A stretch of 64,000 nucleotides of DNA from Crambe crambe (taxonomy: Eukaryota; Porifera; Demospongiae; Poecilosclerida; Crambeidae): contig OZ004590.1 of assembly GCA_963924555.1 (NCBI GenBank), positions 3,318,501 through 3,382,500 of the forward strand, read 5' to 3'. The notes under the pieces were generated by a model that was not told where the DNA came from, did no database searches, and saw only the letters and a list, made by a program, of their open reading frames with translations. The position numbers and the translations under genes were made by a program. Of the stretch, positions 52,188-64,000 are shown one piece after another (within the stretch, counting starts at the first letter, position 1; every line of letters begins with the position of its first letter).

Positions 52188-55100
52188 ATGTCTTCTACTG
52201 AATCCACTACTAATGCTGAAATCACTTCAGAATCTATCGAAGTTGCTGTAGCAAGTATAAACAGCGATTTAAAAGAACCAGTTTACAAAAAATTTCTTAG
52301 CTATGCAACCAGCATACTCTGTGGTTATGCTCAACCAAATACTGCCTCCAAGGAATTATGTATGAGCTGTGCTGGATCATTTTTGGTTAAAGTATTTGAA
52401 AGATCATCAGAAGATGAGAAAAGTGTGCTAGCTAAGATTATCCAAAATGAACATATGATGCTAAGGAAAGTATTTGATGTGATATGCTTGATTTGGACAA
52501 AAGGTAAGAAGCTAGAGCTCCCTCCAGTTCTACTTAGATGTGAGCAGGGTGTCAGGAGCACAAAAAACAAATTTTTAGGCCCTCAAAAATTTATACTCAT
52601 ACGGCAGTCAAGCAAAATTGACCCGAACAATAACATTTCAACTAGGTTTCCCTTATAAGTTTTCCACTGTCAATAGCATGTACGTAAGAATTAGCTATAT
52701 TATTAACAGTTATCTAACCATTACAGAAATTTCACTCTCAAAGAAGTCTTATGAAGACATCCATGCACTTTTGGGATTATTTCTTCACTCTTGCAAGTAT
52801 ATTCTTTTTAAAGAGAATATTCAACTCTGTGTGGAAGTGGTAAATAGTCTAAGCATCTACTTTGAAGATGCTGGAATGGATATCTTCAAAGATATGGTAC
52901 GTATGGCTACCTATAGGTTATCTGCATGTATATAAAGTAGCTACATATGCTTTCTTTTTGTTTTTGGCAAGCAAAGTGAGCCACTATTAGATGTATTGAA
53001 TAGTAATCCAAGATATAGTTTTCCGTTGTATGATCTTTGAGAATTATGCATGCCCAGGCAATGCTTAGCAACAATCAGAATAGACATAGCTGGAGCTTAA
53101 TTGCTTTCTACAGCATTTATCATAGAGGTGGTAAGCATTATACAACCTTCTACGTATGCAGCTTCCACCATATCTAACATCAGCAAGAGCAACTGTAGGA
53201 TAACCAACTAAACTAAATTAACTCTATGAAATAGTAGTATGTGTGGTATTACATCAGTGACCACATTATTTGCTTATCCTTTTATTATTCAAATAATGTC
53301 TGCAGTATTATAGTGAATTCATGACTTTTGAAAAAAAAAATGCTCCCTTTATTATAGGACTCCATTGTTTATAAACTTCTTCAAGATTGTTTGGAGTTTA
53401 TGTGTCTCTTCATTGATCATTCTTCATCAGCCACAGTGCAATATGTTGAATCAAAATGCTCTCAGCTGACACAGAAACTTTGCAATTCTCCGAATCATAT
53501 AATATGCTTACTTGCCAAAGTGGTTTCTGGTCTCTTGAGTGTTAAAGGTCAAAATGTCGAACATACTTCTATGAATCTGAATGACGAGGAGCTAGAATGC
53601 CTTCTCGATATGCTTAAGCCAGAGTATGATTCTTCTCTCTGTGTTTCTGAAAGCATAATTCTAAGTCTATTGAGGGGATTGACAGTAACCAATCACAACA
53701 GGGACAGATTGCAAGAGAGTGACTTTGAGAGTTTGTTGCTGAAGAATCCAAAGTGGTCAACTTATTCATGGATATTTCAGGAATTCTCTTTGAAGCAAAA
53801 CTGTGAAGTAACTGAATCTGAAGAAGAAAGGGCTGCTTCTTCACTCACCCACGAGTCTCAGAGTGAACTGAGTAAGGAATCACATTCCAAGGAACTCCTT
53901 TCATTGGAATCTGTTCTTAAAGTGTCTGACTTAACAGGTATATTAGATGTCAGGCTTTTAAATTCCTTAATTGTAGCAGGTTCCTTTGCCCCTTGAGTAT
54001 TAACAAAGTCTCAATTTATTTTGAAATAAAACACTAAGACAGTCTAACACAGCAGTCCTGTTTTGCATGCGACACAATTCAACAACTATATATAGATCCT
54101 CAACTATCATGCACAGTCTATTATCACTCATTAATTTTATGGAGTAAGTTACACACATGTTGAAGCTACCGCCACTTCTTGTTAGGGAAATAGTAACTAT
54201 ACAATCACATCTTGATATTATAGTGCTTGCTATACCTACCTTACAAAGCAGTAGATGTACCAACTATATGGTAGCAGGCCCTTAATTAGCTCTATTAGCT
54301 ATAGCTACGTAGCTGTAATAGTGGGCTACATAGAGACTGGTCTGTGGCAAATGGATCCATCAATTTTTCTACAATAACTTGCTAGGCTTGCTTCGCTAGC
54401 TAGAGAAAGGGGCGAACTTTGGCTGATAGTAGAGGACGTACACTATAATGTAGATCTAAACATGTGTAGCTATGTATTTATCACTCTATTTCATTTGATT
54501 TTTTTTTTTTTTTTTTTTTTTTTTGCATACATGTAGTCCATGACGAAAGTGGCAATGGTGACACTAGTGTTGTTGAAGTGGTCGACTTTCTGGCAAAGTT
54601 CTTAGTGAAGTTAGTGTCACGTCTTAACTCTTCAGAAGAACCTCCACTCTATAGTGCTGAGTTTGATAACTGCACTGCCTCATTGTTGCTCATTGAACAA
54701 TTGAAGTCAGAGGCCAATGAGAAACAGGACAAAGAGATCAATCACAGTTTATCTCAGATACCATGCTTTGCAAAAACAGCTTCATTACTGCTGGAACACA
54801 TGAATGATCCAGGTATATATTATAATGTATTGATGTCCACAGTTTTTTGAAGGGTGTACATGCATTACTTACAGTTTTGTGGTAGGGAGCGTGCCAATGT
54901 TTCTTAATTGATAGTTATAGCAGAACCCCTCAATATTAACTCCCTGAGCATTTATCAGAGTGCAGTGCAAAATATTCATAACAATTACTTAGAGTATGCA
55001 AAGACTTTGTGTTAGCTAAATGACTGCATCTCAAAATAATTATGGCAAATGAAGCATTTGTATACCCAATGTCACAGAGATGAGCCCGATTATGAGGCTC

Positions 55101-58100
55101 AATCAATGTATTTGATCTTAAGTAGAATATCCGAACTTCCCTTTTAATTAACACAATTACGTATGACTTCTGCATGTTCTTTTTAAGGATTTTGATTCTG
55201 AACAATATATGGAATGTGTATATTGAACTGATGAATGGCTGAGGACATGATTGATCAATTTGTGTTGTGATTTTTGTAATTATGTATATAGGAACGAGTG
55301 AAGTGTTTCGACGTTGTGTATTGCGGACTGTAGTGTGTTTGATGATGGAGCTGACTGACTACAGTCAAGAAGTGTGCATCGAGTTGTCCATGACTGGTTT
55401 TATAGCTTATCTTCTTGCATTTTTGGATAAGGTGGATAAAACAGCTATATTTGAGGTACATAGCTACATGTATTAAATTTTCTGATTTACTGTATTATAG
55501 CTAGACAGACCAATAGAATAAGCTGTGGCCATGAATAGTTCAAGATTTGCAGTCAGTATAATCATAGCTATCTATAATTGTGCATTAATAATTATTGCTT
55601 CCACTCTTCTAGTACCAGTGCCATCCATGATTCATGATAGGTTTCATATACTGTAAGTGAGATTCCACTGTATTACTCTTATATGGACTATATTATAGTC
55701 CCTGAAGGTTGCTGTGTAAAGTGTTAATCCCTATAAAGGATTAGTGGGTCCAAACCTTGCTGGACCTTTCTTATTGTATGTTGAGAGATCTCCAATTATT
55801 ATAGTGATAGCTAGCTATAGTCATGAACTATTCCAAAGTCTTGTGATGTACTAGCTATCCCCAAGAAATTCTTTTACCAGTTTTTCTTCCCATACGTACA
55901 TACAATAGGAAGGAATGATAACACTCGTTATATTGATCTTGACGATCATCCTAAACTGTGCAAAGGAATCTTCGACTCTCCAAATATTCGAAGCTGCAAA
56001 TGCTGCACAAATCATTCTTCCATATGTCGAGTGTCCAATTTTCAACATCAGCATCCTTGGAAAAATAGTTCTTGGTTTCCTAAAGAGTCACCTTAAGAAT
56101 GACCAATTCATGTACCTTGAGCTAGACCCTGAAGAAACCACATATCTGGTGACTCTATTCTCAGAAGCAGTTGAATCTCCTAGTTTGAGAGCTGAGGGTA
56201 ACTCAATTGATGAAATACTCCAGTTTCTCATAAATTTCACACAGCCTTGTGGGAAAAGCACTGAAGAAATGAAAAAGCAAGATGAAAGCCACTCAAAGAA
56301 AGCATCACAATTCAGTCTGGAGTACAGGAAGCAAATGGAGTTATCTTATAATAATATTCAAGTGGCCGTCGCATTTGGAATTCTATCTTCAATCGAAAAA
56401 CTGCTTAATAGGAAAGGTTTGGGTCCTCAACAAACAGATAAGTGTTTGCATTTGCTCTGGAATCTCCTTCATCTGAACTCTATAGTCAATGATCTCTCTT
56501 CTTCTTTTCGAGAAAGTCTTCATAATCTTCCAGATCAGATTTCTGCAAACCCAGATACTAAAGCCTTGATCTTGTGCATCCAGTGGCTGCTTGGAGAAAT
56601 TGATAAAAATGGTAAGTTTTTATATTTATGATGTTGCAGGTATTGCATAGCATTTTCATGTGATTATCATACTGGTATGGCTGCTGTAATAAATTTGATG
56701 CTAAGTCCAAAAACATTTGTATCATGTAACATACTTGTGTACCTGGACCAGTATGTTACCTTTCTTACCCAAATACAAACCTGTATGAACAAAGTCATCC
56801 CCTTAGTGCTTATATAGGTAACCTAGCACCGCCGACCCTTTACCATCTCCCTCCTGTTGGCAATGCCAGGCTAGCTTATAGGTACAGTTTATTTTCTAAA
56901 GGATGCCACCCACATGCTAAAATACTCAATTAATTGCTGTTAATGCAAGTAGGTATTGGTTTAATCCTTTGGAGTTTTATAACTCCAAATTTTTGTGTTC
57001 TAAAAAATTGAGATTTGATGTATCCATAAGTGTGGTCTTATCAGAGAGTGCAGTAGCACTCTCTATGTAGGGTTAGTACGGAATGGGCGTGGCTTCTCTC
57101 ATTGGAACAATACAAACTAGACTCTCTGTATCTCTTCTATTCTTGGTACAGGCTCAACTAAACATCTTACATCTGAAAAACAATGCAGAAGATGATGATA
57201 TGACTGCTCAAACTCCTCCAGAACAGCGTCAACCATCGGCACCAGCCGCCGCCTAAATCTATGATTCATTCAGATTCATCTTCTTTGACGGCTGTAACTC
57301 CATGATCCTTTCACATACGGCAATGAAATTCATATCAACTTGTGCAGTTATAACTACACAATGTGCTTTTACCATCATTATATCCACAGTTTCCCTTCAA
57401 AATAATCACTCATATCGAACGACTTTTCATTATAACTATGTCAGCCATTTTGAAATGACATCATTTGTCATGCGTGCGTGTCTGACACTATGTGCCAACC
57501 AACTATTTTTACTTGAAAACAATATTCAACCTTAGGTCGTACAAAAAGTAAACAAACAAGTGAAAGGAAAAAAATTTATGCTAAATGAAAAGGCCATGTA
57601 GGGTTAGTCTGTACTTTAACAGTTTCTGTCAACAAGAATCAAAATTATGCTGCCTTCAATAATAATCCCTACATCACTGCCTAAACCAAACAGAACACTT
57701 TTATACTGACATGAACAAGTAAAGCAGCTTGGTGGGAGGCAGTGATGTAGGGATTATTATTGAAGGCAGCATAATTGATTCTTGTTAAAGTACAGACTAA
57801 CCCTACATGCCTTTTTTATTTAGCATAAATTTTTTTCCTTTTAATATATAATTTCATTTACTATTGGATTCAAGTTACATAAGCAATATGCCTTTTTTGC
57901 AGATATCTCACTTGGTATTCTCTATGCAAAGGCATGCTACAAATATTCAAATTTCGAAGAGTGTGTCAGCATTTGCTGTGACATGAAGAAGCTTTTATCT
58001 TCAGGCAAAAAAAATTCACAGGCTGCACATGAAATAAACTTGATTTATGGCAAAGCAGTGTATTACACTTCCCAGCCAGAACTGTGGCTCCTCATCAAGG

Positions 58101-61100
58101 AAAGAGATTCTCTAACTGAGAAAGAAATAAGACTGGTATCCAATGAATGTAATAAGAAGATGAAAGAAGCCATCACATGTCTCGGTAGTGCTTTGGATGA
58201 GAGGCAAATTGATTCAGAAGGCTCTAAGCTCCTAGATTTCGCTCTAAATGCTTCTGCTTTGGATCTGGGTTATCTTGGTACCAGATGCCTCCTTTGTCGT
58301 AGAGGTGGACAAAAGCTGAAGAATAGTCACCTTTGGCCAAACTCCATCTTAGAAAGGATTTATAAGGCAGAATATAGGGGTACAACAAAGCCGTTCCTCT
58401 TTGGAAAAAATATCAACCAGCCAAAATTTGGTAGGCAGTGTACCTTTTACATGTTTTGCTACAGATGTGAAGAATTGCTGAGCCAGAATGGTGAAGATCA
58501 GTTTGCAAAACTGCTAGATCACCTCCAGAGAGCTCCAGGTGATACTCACACTTATGATAGCTGGCTTTATAGCTTTGCAATTGGCATAGTGTTTCGTGAG
58601 CTTGCCACTGAGGCGATGTCATATGTGGTCAATGAACAAGAATTGTACAATGCCTTTTTGCTTTGTAGAAAGCATTTGTTCACCCTTTCAGCTAAAATCG
58701 ATAAAAAGTACCTTCCAACTTATGCTGAGGAGGAAGGATACCAATTTCAGAGCATCTGTGCATATACCACTGGCTGCAGTGATCTGTCAGTCTACATCAT
58801 GAATTGCATGGCCAAGCAAGCATCTTCCAAGGATAAGATGATCCACTATTACAGTGAGTATTGCCATTGTTCTGGCTCTGTTGCAACCTGTCGCCTGAGT
58901 GATGCAAAACTTGATTTGAGTGGGCGAGTCCATTTCCTCCAGGTCTACCTGAATGGCATCCATTTTCTGGTGAAATTTAAGGCATCCGAGAACTGCCCAA
59001 TTGATGAACGTTTCCTAATTCTGCCACAACCCACCAGTACTCAAAGAAGTGTGATTCCAGTTGAGGATGTCAACAGCATTCCAGAAGGGGTTTGGTCAGT
59101 TTTACGTCACACCGGATCTATAAGTTTTGACTTGCGAATGAGATGTTATCAAGCCATATCCGATCTCACTTTATGCAATCTGACCGAGTCAGATTCACAA
59201 CTACACAATTCCACTTCTGCAGTGATGACAAACTCAACTTTGCTTCCCTCTCAGCCTATAGATCCCACTTCAGAGGTAGATATTTTAACTGATAGTATCA
59301 GAAATAGTGGTGCTTCTATGTTGAGCCTCCCTTCCTTGTGTATGTTTAATCTCCTGCCTAAATCCTTTTCCATTAACGTGAATAAGCCTGGGGAGTTACC
59401 TCTTTGCCTTCCAGATGAACACAAGGTTATTTTGCATCTCTCTGGACAACTAGGAGAGCTTTTAGCAAGCTACTTCTTGTGCATGGATTCTTCTGTGGAT
59501 TCACAGAATTTCTATATAATTTTTGTCTACTCTGATGATGCAAATTCTGATCTACAAATTGCTGACGGAGTTAACATTACTGCAGAAGATGAGCCAGTTG
59601 TTAGTTCTTTCCTATTGAATGATCGACCCAGAATGGAAAGTCTTCCTCACCCATTCTCAATTCCTGTAATGCAAGAAATGATTGACCAACAGCTTCCAAG
59701 CCTATTGTACTCTAAAGGAATAAAGAGTATGAAGCACCTCATGCACCTATTGGACTGCAGAAGGTAAGTTATAAGACACACATTGCCCTAGTAGTCAATA
59801 ATCTTTTTGGTAATGAGTCTTGGTCAATGTATGCTATCTAGCTATAGGAAGATTATTGAAGTGAGTTCGACTATAGTAATTATTAGCAAACCTATAATTA
59901 AAGCAATAGTTTCAGAGGCTCTCTAAGAACTTATTCTTTTTTGCAAAGTACCATAATGCATATCTTATTGTAGCGTATATTTTGAGTGAGCTAATATGTT
60001 ATTTGAACTTGCTTAGAATATTTTTTATTGTTGTTGTTGTTTTTAAAAACTTCTTTCAATTCCTTATAACTGCATGGATGTAGCTTCCAGTCAAGTCTAG
60101 CTATATGACATTGGCTGCAGATTAGCTATACAGCTTAAGATTCTCTTTTGACTCCTGGAAGGAATGCCTGGACCGGACCCTTCATGATCATGATTAGTAG
60201 CTAGGTTCTTTGCTGGCTTTTTTTTATATATTTTTTACTAACATAGAGAGTAATAATGTTATTGGTAGCTAACTCTACTAGCTAGCTTAAAAACACCCGA
60301 AATGCTAGCATGATTCACTGACCTTTATACTACCATACAAAGGACACATTTCAAGCCCCCAAATTTAACAATACTATTAGTAGGAACCGTATTGGTACAT
60401 TAAAGAATTTTTTACTTCCCTAAAAATGTGTGTGTAGCTATTAGCCATGGATGTATAGCTAATAACTATACATTTTCCCACAGGCTTAATAAATCATTGA
60501 CAAGTGCAATGGAGTCTATACCGGCTCTCGACACCAAATGTCAACCTGCTTGCTGTTGGTACTGTGAGAATCTCTGTCACTGCTGCATGTATCCAGTTCC
60601 ATTATGGGCTTCAGAAGCTCCCAGCCTTTCACCTGGACCAGAAGAACCTCTTACAAAGTTCTGTGGAGAGAACTGTCAGGAACTGCTTCACCCAAAGCCC
60701 GGGTCTCCTCCTAAGGTGTCTGTAACCTTCAATAAAAAGAAACCAGGAAAGATAGTCGGCCCTGCTAAGCTGCAAATAACGAAATCTCTTCTACCTTCTG
60801 GAGCCAAATTTAGTAAGCTTGAGTATATTGAGCTCTGCATAGCAGATGGTTGTGGAGTGACACCAGTTGGAGTGCCTTATGTATTGTGGCAACTACGGTC
60901 AATCAATTCTCAAAGTTTTATGGACTTTACAATCAATGACAAGTTTGAACCACTGGAGTGTCTGTGGATGTCAAGAAATGCTCAATTGAATATATCTCTT
61001 GATGATTCACCAGTTAAGATCCAAATATGTCGGCTGTTGCAAAATGTTCTTGCACTAATCTTGGAGAAGCTTGGATACAAATGCCTAGGTTCATTCGTGG

Positions 61101-61123
61101 CTGATAATTTGCCTGAAGTGTGA
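52188..61123 (+). CDS. Large host protein with HNH (SHIIP)-like zinc domain (8 exons, ~1569 aa)
   Basis: Exons 52188-52503, 52727-52896, 53358-53937, 54537-54812, 55292-55455, 55909-56611, 57903-59763 and 60484-61123, all GT-AG; the sum (4710 nt) is in frame from ATG to TGA. Residues ~1-735 are helix-rich with leucine-spaced stretches, no signal peptide, and may be ARM/HEAT-like. Exon 7 begins with a TPR-like helix pair (LGILYAKACYKYSNFEECVS), then C865-x2-C868, S878-H879-LWPNSI, C922-x2-C925-EELLSQNGEDQF and FAIGIVFRELA. That order (CxxC, SHxxPxxI, CxxCE-LS-xE, FAxSxxxR) is what I know from SHIIP-type HNH nuclease-like proteins. A second cluster, CQPACCWYCENLCHCC (1376-1391) followed by FCGENC, begins the last exon. 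I do not recognise the whole protein; nuclease activity is not shown. Probably intracellular. Introns 4, 6 and 7 are long; intron 6 holds a transposon. Confidence 0.8.
53938..54536. other. Intron 3 of the HNH-like gene
   Basis: AT-rich with no gene. A 26-base T run (54499-54524) lies 12 bp before the next exon and forms its polypyrimidine tract. Confidence 0.6.
57042..57842. mobile_element. ~800-bp foldback-ended element, copy B (in intron 6)
   Basis: Second copy of the element at 22013-22761: the same hairpin start (AGAGTGCAGTAGCACTCT), TATGTAGGGTTAG, then the ~480-bp body, then a 290-bp foldback from ACAAGTGAAAGGAAAAAAAT to ATTTTTTTCCTTTTAATAT. The right arm is more complete here than in copy A. 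It sits in the intron before the zinc-domain exon, about 60 bp from the splice acceptor. Confidence 0.85.
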
Positions 61124-61910
61124 TCAAAATGTGGCACAGTTAACTTAAAAATGACTTATAATAGCTAGCTAGCTTTTACTGTTTGTAGCTACCATTGTTG
61201 TTGCTCTTGGTTGTGATTGGCATAGTCAGAGTTGTTAGTATTTTTTGCATGCTTCCCTTAATAGTCATTGGTTCTACAGCTCCTGCTCTCATATACATAG
61301 CTACCCCGGTTGCATATACATGCAGGGTGTTGGGGCGTTGGGTCTAAACATAGCCTAATATGGACGAAAATAGGTGGGGCTTCCTGGGTATGAAGACAGC
61401 TAATATTAATGCTTTACGAAAGATGCCATATAAAGATATGAAATTTTTTCTACAGCCAGGTCCTAGAAAATAGTGGGACTTTTTCCTACTGTTTTAGCTA
61501 TTTTGGGTTGTTTTTTTGTTGTTTTTTGTTTTTGTTTTTGTTTTTTGGTTATTTTTTTTGCCATAGCTAGATGGAATGACATAAATGTGACCACGTCCTC
61601 TGTAGCTATAGGGTAGCTAATAGCCACTTGTAAAAGTTTAAACAGTTAGCTACTATCAGGACTGAGGCCTCTGAGCAACTTGGTGGAAGCTCAGAGTTAA
61701 TTAACCAATTGGGTATATGTGTGAGTTTCGACACACTACTAGCTAATCACTTGAAGCCAACAAAGGAGTATAGCATCAGGTAGAAGGCGGTTGCATGCAC
61801 TGCTATCCTCTATGAATTCACCTGATAAAGTTACACGATCACCCCTCCAGAAAACGAAGCAGAGCTAGAACTGGTACTGAACTTTCTCAACTTCCTCAAC
61901 TGCCACTGAT
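61124..61910. other. Intergenic, nothing recognised
   Basis: 3' flank of the HNH-like gene; G/T-rich simple tract (GTTTTTT-type) at about 61507-61560. No gene seen. Confidence 0.5.
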
Positions 61911-63690
61911 ACTAGTGGCTATGACTTCACTCTCTCCACTAGCACATACAGACCTGACCCATTTTCTTTATCTATTGAGAATTTTAGAGTTACTGTTAAA
62001 GAAAACAGCAAAGTTCATGAATTCATGGCCCTTGGCCTCCAACTTTTCAAATTGCTACTAAAGCACTTAAGCCAGAAGTAGGGAGTGTAAAGTACATACA
62101 GGTGCTTGATGAAGTAGTTGATAGCAAAGATACAATTTTACATGTGATTAGTGAGCTTCATGCAGAATACATCTGCAAACACAATCACAAATACCTGGTA
62201 CTCGAAGGAGATTAAAACATACGAAACTATCCAGGCAATCAAACACGAGTATGGGCAGGTTCACTGGTTGATACCTTATCCAGGTGACTGGCACCTCTTG
62301 AAGAACTACCTTTGCCTTATGAAGCCTTTCTTTGAGGCAGGATTGAAGGACTTAGCAGTGACTAGTGGCTACCCCTCTCAATCAATACAAAGTTGCTCAC
62401 AATTCAAATGATTGATGGAAGTATGGGAAGCCATGTACCAGAGCTTTCTGAGGTTGAAGGTAACAATAGCCAATACTCTGCAGGAGTTTGAGAAAGTGAG
62501 CTATGTTTGTACAGTGTAATCAGGTCTTTTGGGGAAGAGAGAACCAATTTTGATGAAAAATTCAGCAGGTATGTCAAGAAAATGTCAAAAAGTGATGATA
62601 TACTTGGAAGTTCTGGAGTAGATTTATTTTAGAGGACTGCCAGCCATATATTGCACCATCAGAAGTGAAAACTGGCACCTCAGAATGGCTTCAGTGAAGG
62701 CAATGGCTGCAGACTTCACAGCTTTCGATCATCCAATCTATCAAAAGCTGATCACTCAACATATTGTTGACATTATGAACATGCCTCCATGGAGTACTTT
62801 GAAAATGGAGGGTTTGTACTGCCATCAAGTCAGCAGCAAATATTCAGTGCATGCTTCAGAAATTGAATGATTGTGAGGTATTTCCTCATACTCTTCAAGA
62901 AAATAGGGGGTTAATCAACCCATTTAGGGGGCTAGCAGCAAATGCAGCACAAAGGCTTGATCTCCTCAATTTCAACAAAATTGGAAGGGAAAATTTTGAA
63001 CTGAGAGTAAAAGTGTACCTGCTCAAAACCCCCAGTGTGAAAGTGCCTCAGCACAGGAAGAAATTACAAACTTTTACCACACAGAAGAAAGGAAGCACAA
63101 GACAAGTTAATGCTGCTCAGCAGGAACTTAAAAGAGTTCAAAAGTGCATGAGGCACATGCCAACAAAACTGGTACTAACCCAGACGTGATAGGCCAACAG
63201 TACATTGAATTTCCAAAGACACTATGTACAACTGATGGGCAAAGGGCAGAAGAGCATTACCACTAATTTTTACCAAGCACGGTACAAAGATGCAGAATTA
63301 GTTTCTCTAGCACCTTTGCTGATTCCGCAATTTTAGAAGGAATGTTCAAAGCCACTTTACTGCCACAAATTAATGGGGGATTATAGGAACTTCTTAATGA
63401 GACGGTTTATTCTGCCATACCTGAAGAAAGGGTTCATCGTCTCTTTGATGATCCAGGTAGGCAAGCGGAAAACCCAAAACAGTTTGAGACACCAATTTGG
63501 TTGACCACACTTGCTTTGTGTTCTTTGATGACTCAGAAGTCCCTATTAAGTGGCAACCCACAATCAAGTGTAGATTGTGTAAAAGCTAGGAAGATCAGGC
63601 CATTTTTGACAGAAATACAGAAATATGTGACATCTGGTGCAACAGACACCTTCAGCAACTTAAGATCCTTATCGCTTGGCCACTGAGCTG
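61910..63690 (+). pseudogene. Decayed transposon protein, GDWH-type (DUF6589-like)
   Basis: Fragments in several plus-strand frames line up as one broken protein: GYDFTLSTSTYRPDPFSLSI at 61920, YETIQAIKHEYGQVHWLIPY then PGDWHLLKNYLCLMKPFFEA at 62220-62350, DFTAFDHPIYQKLITQHI near 62700, and VFPHTLQENRGLINPFRGLA then NAAQRLDLLNF near 62880-62975. The PGDWHLLKN motif and overall style match a transposon-derived family common in sponges and cnidarians that I associate with DUF6589; the family name is from memory and less certain than the fact of decay. Many stops and frameshifts. Confidence 0.6.
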
Positions 63691-64000
63691 GATAAGCACA
63701 CATTCACCTGACATGACCAACGGCAGACTGATATGGCAACAAATACTTTCACTTAATAATTAACTAGCAGTGTAAACAGGGCCAGATCCAGCTAGGATTC
63801 TTAGATAGATGGGGTTGTAGGACTAGGAGCACACACACACACTGGGCCATGGGGAAGGTGCAAGTCAGAGTTTCATTTAGGATTTTTTGTTTGGGGGGGA
63901 AGAACTCCTTGGAATCCTTGACCGCAATAGCAGTGCCTCCAAGTGTATGTTTTTATGCATTATTTATATACAAAAATCATGATCAATATGCAAGTATCCA
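63691..64000. other. Right edge, nothing recognised
   Basis: A short CA run (63831-63842) and a G run at about 63892. No coding sequence or RNA. Confidence 0.5.

Follow-up and report, generated by a model that had tools for sequence, protein, structure and literature searches.

Several components of animal immunity, TIR and cGAS-like ones among others, are shared with prokaryotic antivirus systems. The TRADD-N/Death arrays of Amphimedon form an animal multigene immune family with prokaryote-shared domains, as set out in PMC8195603. Here we analyzed a 64,000-nucleotide stretch of the Crambe crambe genome (contig OZ004590.1, positions 3,318,501 to 3,382,500, forward strand), termed the window, and found a spliced gene whose large seventh exon encodes a SHIIP-like block of ~115 residues. 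The described families nearest to it are the HNH_5 domain (PF14279) and a prokaryotic family that PHROGs records only as "unknown function" (phrog_26326), and for which the domain libraries searched give no other name. With a probability of about 0.5, we read the gene as one of an animal expansion of ~30 genes for large scaffold proteins that share with prokaryotic defense-associated proteins an HNH_5-like zinc domain, which would act as a nucleic acid effector in defense.

As in phrog_26326 and other SHIIP proteins, the block presents C-x2-C, [S]H-x2-P, C-x2-CE, E, F, and [W/F]R in this order over ~102 columns; unlike them, it is carried by an animal protein encoded by a spliced gene, with ~860 residues before it and ~590 after it. 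It has in common with HNH_5 a C-x2-C followed by [DE]H-x2-P and a later C-x2-C, but the insertion separating its two strands is longer and includes a helix, its score is below the Pfam cut-off, and it has Glu where HNH_5 has Asn after the last Cys (Asp in paralogue L036). The block resembles the Amphimedon arrays (PMC8195603) in that a domain also present in prokaryotic conflict systems has expanded within a single lineage of animals; the domains themselves are different. We scanned 33 animal exons (part of the paralogue exons) together with 113 prokaryotic neighbor open reading frames (ORFs) and obtained matches to 98 families at E≤1e-4; among the 25 commonest of these, none of the Death, TIR, and NTPase domains could be assigned to the animal exons. 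A search of open-licence papers listed no description of this family, and in the animal a domain of a known kind is set in a new architecture.

Frames homologous to exon 7 were found at ~30 loci on 13 contigs of the animal genome (143 Mb, 119 contigs), several of them clustered, with a best paralogue match at E 3.2e-48. This count of distinct loci includes the window locus and excludes one place at E 0.13 that contains a stop; the animal side of the study covers this one genome. Because homologous frames recur at so many loci of the same genome, the order of the motifs is more than chance. We aligned 22 exons, namely, that of the window and 21 from 20 fetched loci, with seven loci not included, and obtained a median pairwise identity of 26%. 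Despite this divergence, C865, C868, H879, P882, C922, C925, E926, E934, F937, and R968 are invariant in all 22 copies, and S878 is kept in 21. An earlier, preliminary description of this DNA had proposed checking whether C865, C868, H879, C922, and C925 vary freely among homologues, and all five turned out to be fixed among the aligned paralogues. By eye, a 23rd copy (L036) retains the Cys, His, Pro, second Glu, and Arg residues and has E926 replaced by Asp.

The ratio of nonsynonymous to synonymous substitution rates was between 0.18 and 0.75 in two recent paralogue pairs (segments with a defined ratio), and older pairs were saturated. The N-terminal part of exon 7 in the pair L009/L011 shows nine nonsynonymous and no synonymous changes, so that its ratio is undefined. 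We found no clear sign of diversifying selection or of an arms race in these recent pairs, which carry few changes. By eye, frames near one paralogue (L011:9058-9900) resemble reverse transcriptase.

The relation to prokaryotic SHIIP proteins, put forward in the preliminary description, was borne out by profile comparison. In PHROGs, the window block matched phrog_26326 and phrog_19960, both of "unknown function." The phrog_26326 match (E 4.6e-5) spans only positions 14 to 130 of the 303 in the profile, the block portion alone, and on this alignment the window protein is a domain homologue of the family rather than a full-length member. The same profile matched 17 of the 22 aligned animal copies at E≤0.01 (best E 3.3e-11) and 15 places in the animal genome, compared with none in 14 control genomes. 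Profile-profile alignment of the animal and prokaryotic blocks with hhalign gave a probability of 99.6% and an E-value of 4e-24 over 102 columns; another hhalign comparison to prokaryotic relatives gave 97.9% and 3e-13. As judged by these profiles, each animal member studied contains, in the middle of the protein, a domain homologous to the N-terminal domain of the phrog_26326 family.

With the block of paralogue L019 as the query, we obtained plasmid proteins of Halanaeroarchaeum, Haloplanus, Lysinibacillus, and Burkholderia (E 0.005 to 2). All but the Burkholderia protein align with phrog_26326 along almost its entire profile (E 8.6e-59 to 2.8e-71); the Burkholderia protein matches the first part of that profile (E 1.6e-20). 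Later scans yielded relatives at 18 bacterial or archaeal loci and on nine IMG/VR contigs, the latter with a four-protein alignment (A2) as the query; when the window block or the Lysinibacillus protein was the query by itself, IMG/VR gave nothing that was confirmed. Against phages, tblastn with exon 7 or the window block gave no match or chance-level ones, and L019 gave one match at E 1. Exons 7 and 8 matched no family at E≤5 in Pfam, NCBIfam, or PADLOC, and no PDB chain matched exon 7 or the block profile by sequence. Single-sequence tblastn with the window block likewise stayed at chance level (best E 0.5), which is what one would expect if the motifs had come together by chance in an animal zinc protein, or if the locus were a microbial contaminant. 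Both ideas are hardly credible, and we reject them: the profile matches reach 3e-13 and 4e-24, phrog_26326 is confined to the animal genome in the comparison with the control genomes, and the spliced exons lie inside a 7.57-Mb contig of a genome with Wnt matches, which are absent from all 14 control genomes and mark it as that of an animal.

The intact prokaryotic proteins are ~250 to 440 residues long; they begin with the block and continue into a C-terminal part of their own. Their alignment comprises 22 of the 27 scanned loci, since L042, L043, L049, L058, and L064 were dropped for broken or short frames; the four plasmid proteins and L087/L088 stand outside this count. In a tree built without an outgroup, and with long-branch warnings, a single branch with a support of 100/98 separates the 22 animal rows from the others. 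The prokaryotic family is rare and patchy: phrog_26326 was found in 4 of 199 genomes, and the protein of L053 as the query found the family in 3 of 296, the center genome being counted in both cases. It occurs on chromosomes, plasmids, and virus contigs. In the Methylophilus copy, an in-frame TGA (L042:6172-6174) falls exactly at the near-invariant last zinc cysteine; the frame stays open for the 19 further codons read, and homology runs on to query residue 282. A nonsense mutation is the simple reading, with selenocysteine as an alternative. Two other prokaryotic copies have in-frame stops with homologous sequence beyond (L043:484-486 and L049:6280-6282), and some copies look inactivated because of them.

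Across the 44 aligned sequences (22 animal and 22 prokaryotic), C865, L867, H879, P882, E926, E934, and R968 are the same throughout. C868 and C925 differ only in L053, and C922 differs in L053 and L065. The L053 copy, from Nonlabens (L053:5995-6864), has lost three of the four zinc cysteines and keeps SHIIP and the acidic residues. Because L053 retains them without these cysteines, the His, Pro, two Glu, and Arg residues look like working residues and the zinc like support. This pattern suggests a functional core made up of the H/E/E/R set.

We then considered the genes around the prokaryotic block gene at 30 loci. On either side, we took at most two ORFs with 100 residues or more, which gave the 113 ORFs of the family scan. 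Loci L049, L058, L064, L081, L083, and L084 were omitted, a 1,200-residue cut-off removed none, and at L042 and L043 at least one "neighbor" frame is what is left of the broken block gene itself. Among the 25 commonest families were TIR_2 (three matches), SduA of Shedu (two), Tn7-like TnsD (two), and TniQ (two), together with one match each to PglZ and BrxL (BREX), a TdeIII restriction enzyme, a C5 DNA methylase, and AbiTii; the BrxL and TdeIII matches were not placed at specific loci. Placed by coordinates, TIR adjoins L051 and L052 and lies near L037. PglZ is the next ORF after L045, SduA adjoins L047, AbiTii is near L050, and the C5 methylase is near L055. The neighbor of L046 is 86% identical to the SduA of L047 and was unlisted in the genome search at E≤1e-4. 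Defense-type neighbors (BREX, Shedu, TIR, AbiTii, or DNA methylase) are therefore present at 8 of the 30 loci, with L046 and L047 being close relatives. These two loci also have TniQ next to the block gene: Tn7-like genes containing TniQ (L046:3763-5469 and L047:3884-5593) lie beside the block gene and the Shedu-type gene, and the prokaryotic block gene may be mobilized as cargo of a Tn7-like element.

In 16 genome assemblies (61.2 Mb), we counted 40 genes of five families (PglZ, SduA, AbiTii, TIR, and C5 methylase), 6 of which, in six different genomes, lie within 5 kb of a block gene, when 0.12 would be expected. The corresponding Poisson P value of 3.8e-9 is too small, since the families were chosen post hoc from the observed neighbors, and the same-contig correspondence behind the distances was checked, by length, for some genomes only. 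Outside this count, the block gene of an Exiguobacterium plasmid begins 37 bases downstream of a DNA cytosine methyltransferase gene, with an AlwI-type restriction enzyme nearby, and the Thiodictyon copy is followed by a VapC toxin gene; the other annotated neighborhoods had no such genes beside the block gene. The best reading is that the prokaryotic proteins are defense associated, about one-quarter of the examined loci adjoining known defense genes.

As for the fold, we compared the block with seven HNH_5 domains that the genomes of the relatives themselves encode (the pattern was obtained at 7 of 9 loci). The best hhalign alignment covers 22 columns, with the first CxxC and H-x2-P in register. 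It scored 35.5 with the prokaryotic profile (maximum of 22.0 in 300 column shuffles with the cysteines fixed) and 28.5 with the animal profile (maximum of 23.8), so that none of the 300 shuffles reached the observed score with either profile. HNH_5 is also the Pfam family that matches the most members, always below threshold: 9 of 22 prokaryotic sequences (best E 0.02) and 4 of 22 animal copies at E≤1 (best E 0.13), the window block itself having no HNH_5 match in the Pfam scan. HNH_2 matched 2 of the 22 prokaryotic sequences, again below threshold (best E 0.0028). The AlphaFold2 model of a Clostridium relative, with a predicted local distance difference test (pLDDT) of 91.8 and a predicted template modeling score (pTM) of 0.90, has a strand at positions 13 to 17 ending at the His, a helix at 21 to 30, a strand at 50 to 55, and a helix at 56 to 78 that contains the end of C-x2-CE. 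The model of the window block shows the same order of elements, with ten-residue pLDDT means of 78 to 90 over residues 11 to 40 and 61 to 120. In both models, the elements succeed one another as in HNH: first a strand at the His motif, then another strand, then a helix where the second CxxC lies.

A number of results weigh against the reading of the block as an HNH_5-like effector of defense. No Pfam HNH model reached its cut-off in the animal or the prokaryotic blocks, and the 22-column likeness is not confidently extended to the second CxxC: in a forced global alignment with the prokaryotic profile, that motif stands opposite the HNH_5 C-x2-CN, and E926 stands opposite the Asn, at a confidence of 16%. 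This Asn is Glu in all 22 animal and all 22 prokaryotic sequences, and because an acid replaces it, the chemistry, if any, would be a variant one. The model of the window block has a mean pLDDT of only 67.5. Foldseek returned nothing at E≤0.001 for either model against PDB, and no viral match at E≤0.001 for the prokaryotic model against BFVD. The Pro is not absolute, since L088, a prokaryotic copy outside the alignment, has SHIIA. No defense family was placed at 22 of the 30 loci, and none of the results connects the animal proteins as such with either immunity or nucleic acids.

The replacement of the Asn, the lack of a Pfam HNH call over cut-off, and the invariance of all four cysteines in the 22 animal copies would suit a noncatalytic zinc module, a protein- or nucleic acid-binding treble clef within a scaffold whose conserved residues are structural. 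We consider this possible but doubtful: residues of a purely structural site should vanish together with the cysteines, yet H879, P882, E926, E934, and R968 are invariant in the 44 sequences, L053 included. The empty Foldseek searches and the shortness of the HNH_5 match could also be explained by some other, non-HNH enzyme or binding domain common to prokaryotes and the animal, its likeness to HNH_5 being a convergence on CxxC..H. This is improbable given the shuffle test, in which the cysteines were held fixed, the predominance of HNH_5 among the sub-threshold Pfam matches, the HNH_2 matches, and the agreement of the secondary-structure order with HNH. An HNH_5-like fold is the most likely one on the models, although it is not established, and the block is a likely, rather than proven, HNH nuclease, whose activity is a prediction. 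The HNH label of the preliminary description thus stands in part. The register from C-x2-C to H-x2-P and the order of elements, which fits a beta-beta-alpha fold, speak for it; the Pfam cut-offs, the Foldseek comparison it had called for, and the acidic residue in place of the "CN" Asn do not.

At the window locus, eight exons splice into an open frame of 1,569 residues with one terminal stop, through GT/AG borders and compatible phases. The features are as follows.
52188-61123, forward strand: whole coding region, exons 1 to 8
52188-52503, forward strand: exon 1, phase-compatible open frame with GT/AG borders
52727-52896, forward strand: exon 2, phase-compatible open frame with GT/AG borders
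53358-53937, forward strand: exon 3, phase-compatible open frame with GT/AG borders
52188-53937, forward strand: exons 1 to 3 together, N-terminal region, residues 1-355; the start codon is a guess
54537-54812, forward strand: exon 4, phase-compatible open frame with GT/AG borders
55292-55455, forward strand: exon 5, phase-compatible open frame with GT/AG borders
54537-55455, forward strand: exons 4 and 5 together, residues 356-502, on the same basis as exons 1 to 3
55909-56611, forward strand: exon 6, residues 503-736, from paralogue conservation and a sub-threshold Pfam TIMELESS match
57903-59763, forward strand: exon 7, residues 737-1357, a single large exon in which the SHIIP-like block is flanked by N- and C-terminal segments
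58283-58630, forward strand: SHIIP-like (HNH_5-like) block, residues 864-979, from the paralogue alignment, PHROGs, hhalign, and AlphaFold2
60484-61123, forward strand: exon 8, residues 1357-1569, C-terminal region, from paralogue conservation
60539-60676, forward strand: second cysteine cluster, residues 1376-1421 (C1376, C1381, C1384, C1388, C1391, C1417, and C1421)

This splice confirms the motif order that the preliminary description had read from an in-frame exon chain. CLLC begins at residue 865 (58286), SHLWPNSI at 878 (58325), CYRCEELLSQNGEDQF at 922 (58457), and FAIGIVFREL at 961 (58574), and C865, C868, H879, C922, and C925 are at the positions claimed. The ~735 residues placed ahead of the block's exon agree with the start of exon 7 at residue 737, and the further cysteine cluster behind the block is present in exon 8, where C1381, C1384, C1388, C1391, C1417, and C1421 are retained in 13 of 13 correctly sliced rows and C1376 is not invariant (a 14th row, L016, was excluded for a wrong slice). 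In paralogues L009, L010, and L011, exons 7 and 8 form one uninterrupted frame, matching window residues 744-1564, 744-1519, and 744-1564, respectively; as these genes need no splice there, they independently confirm the 59763/60484 junction. Exon 6, too, is conserved among paralogues. Exons 1 to 5, which had no match at E≤5 among frames of at least 80 residues in the paralogue loci, are predicted from their open frames and phases.

The earlier description of residues 1-735 as helical and TPR- or ARM-like was not confirmed: with the frames of exons 1, 3, and 6 scanned, nothing exceeded a Pfam cut-off, and the matches were UBR4_N in exon 1 and TIMELESS in exon 6 (55909-56631; E 4.6e-4; 20 bits versus a cut-off of 25), both sub-threshold. 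The TIMELESS match is possibly a generic armadillo-like signal. Intron 6 contains nested inverted repeats (57563-57841) with arms of 59 nucleotides, 95% complementary, and 40 nucleotides, 100% complementary, which resemble a small foldback element. Downstream of the gene, short overlapping open frames in several phases (61816-63763) look, by eye, like a decayed mobile-element protein.

For the defense effector favored here, we propose that zinc would be held by C865, C868, C922, and C925 and would stabilize a treble clef, with H879, at the general-base position of HNH enzymes, activating water. The acidic E926, in place of the HNH_5 Asn, could bind metal together with E934, and R968 could hold a phosphate, E934 and R968 being further candidates for the active site. 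The regions on either side of the block, together with the second zinc cluster, might recognize a trigger or assemble and position the block, which would then cut or bind nucleic acid. The purpose would be defense in the animal, as it probably is in prokaryotes. The ~30 diverged copies and the defense-gene neighbors of the prokaryotic relatives point to immunity, which is unproven for the animal proteins. The animal may have taken over a microbial defense component, a direction of transfer that we infer; the fuller scenario, in which it captured the catalytic domain of a defense-associated prokaryotic nuclease and fused it between recognition regions and a C-terminal zinc cluster, giving ~30 innate immune nucleases that both sense and cut foreign nucleic acid, strikes us as rather unlikely in all its parts. 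The family would be a further candidate for a part of immunity shared with prokaryotes, present in ~30 copies in one animal with an identical H, P, E, E, R core in the aligned animal and prokaryotic members, and it opens two questions together: what role the prokaryotic family plays, and whether its chemistry has been retained in the animal copies.
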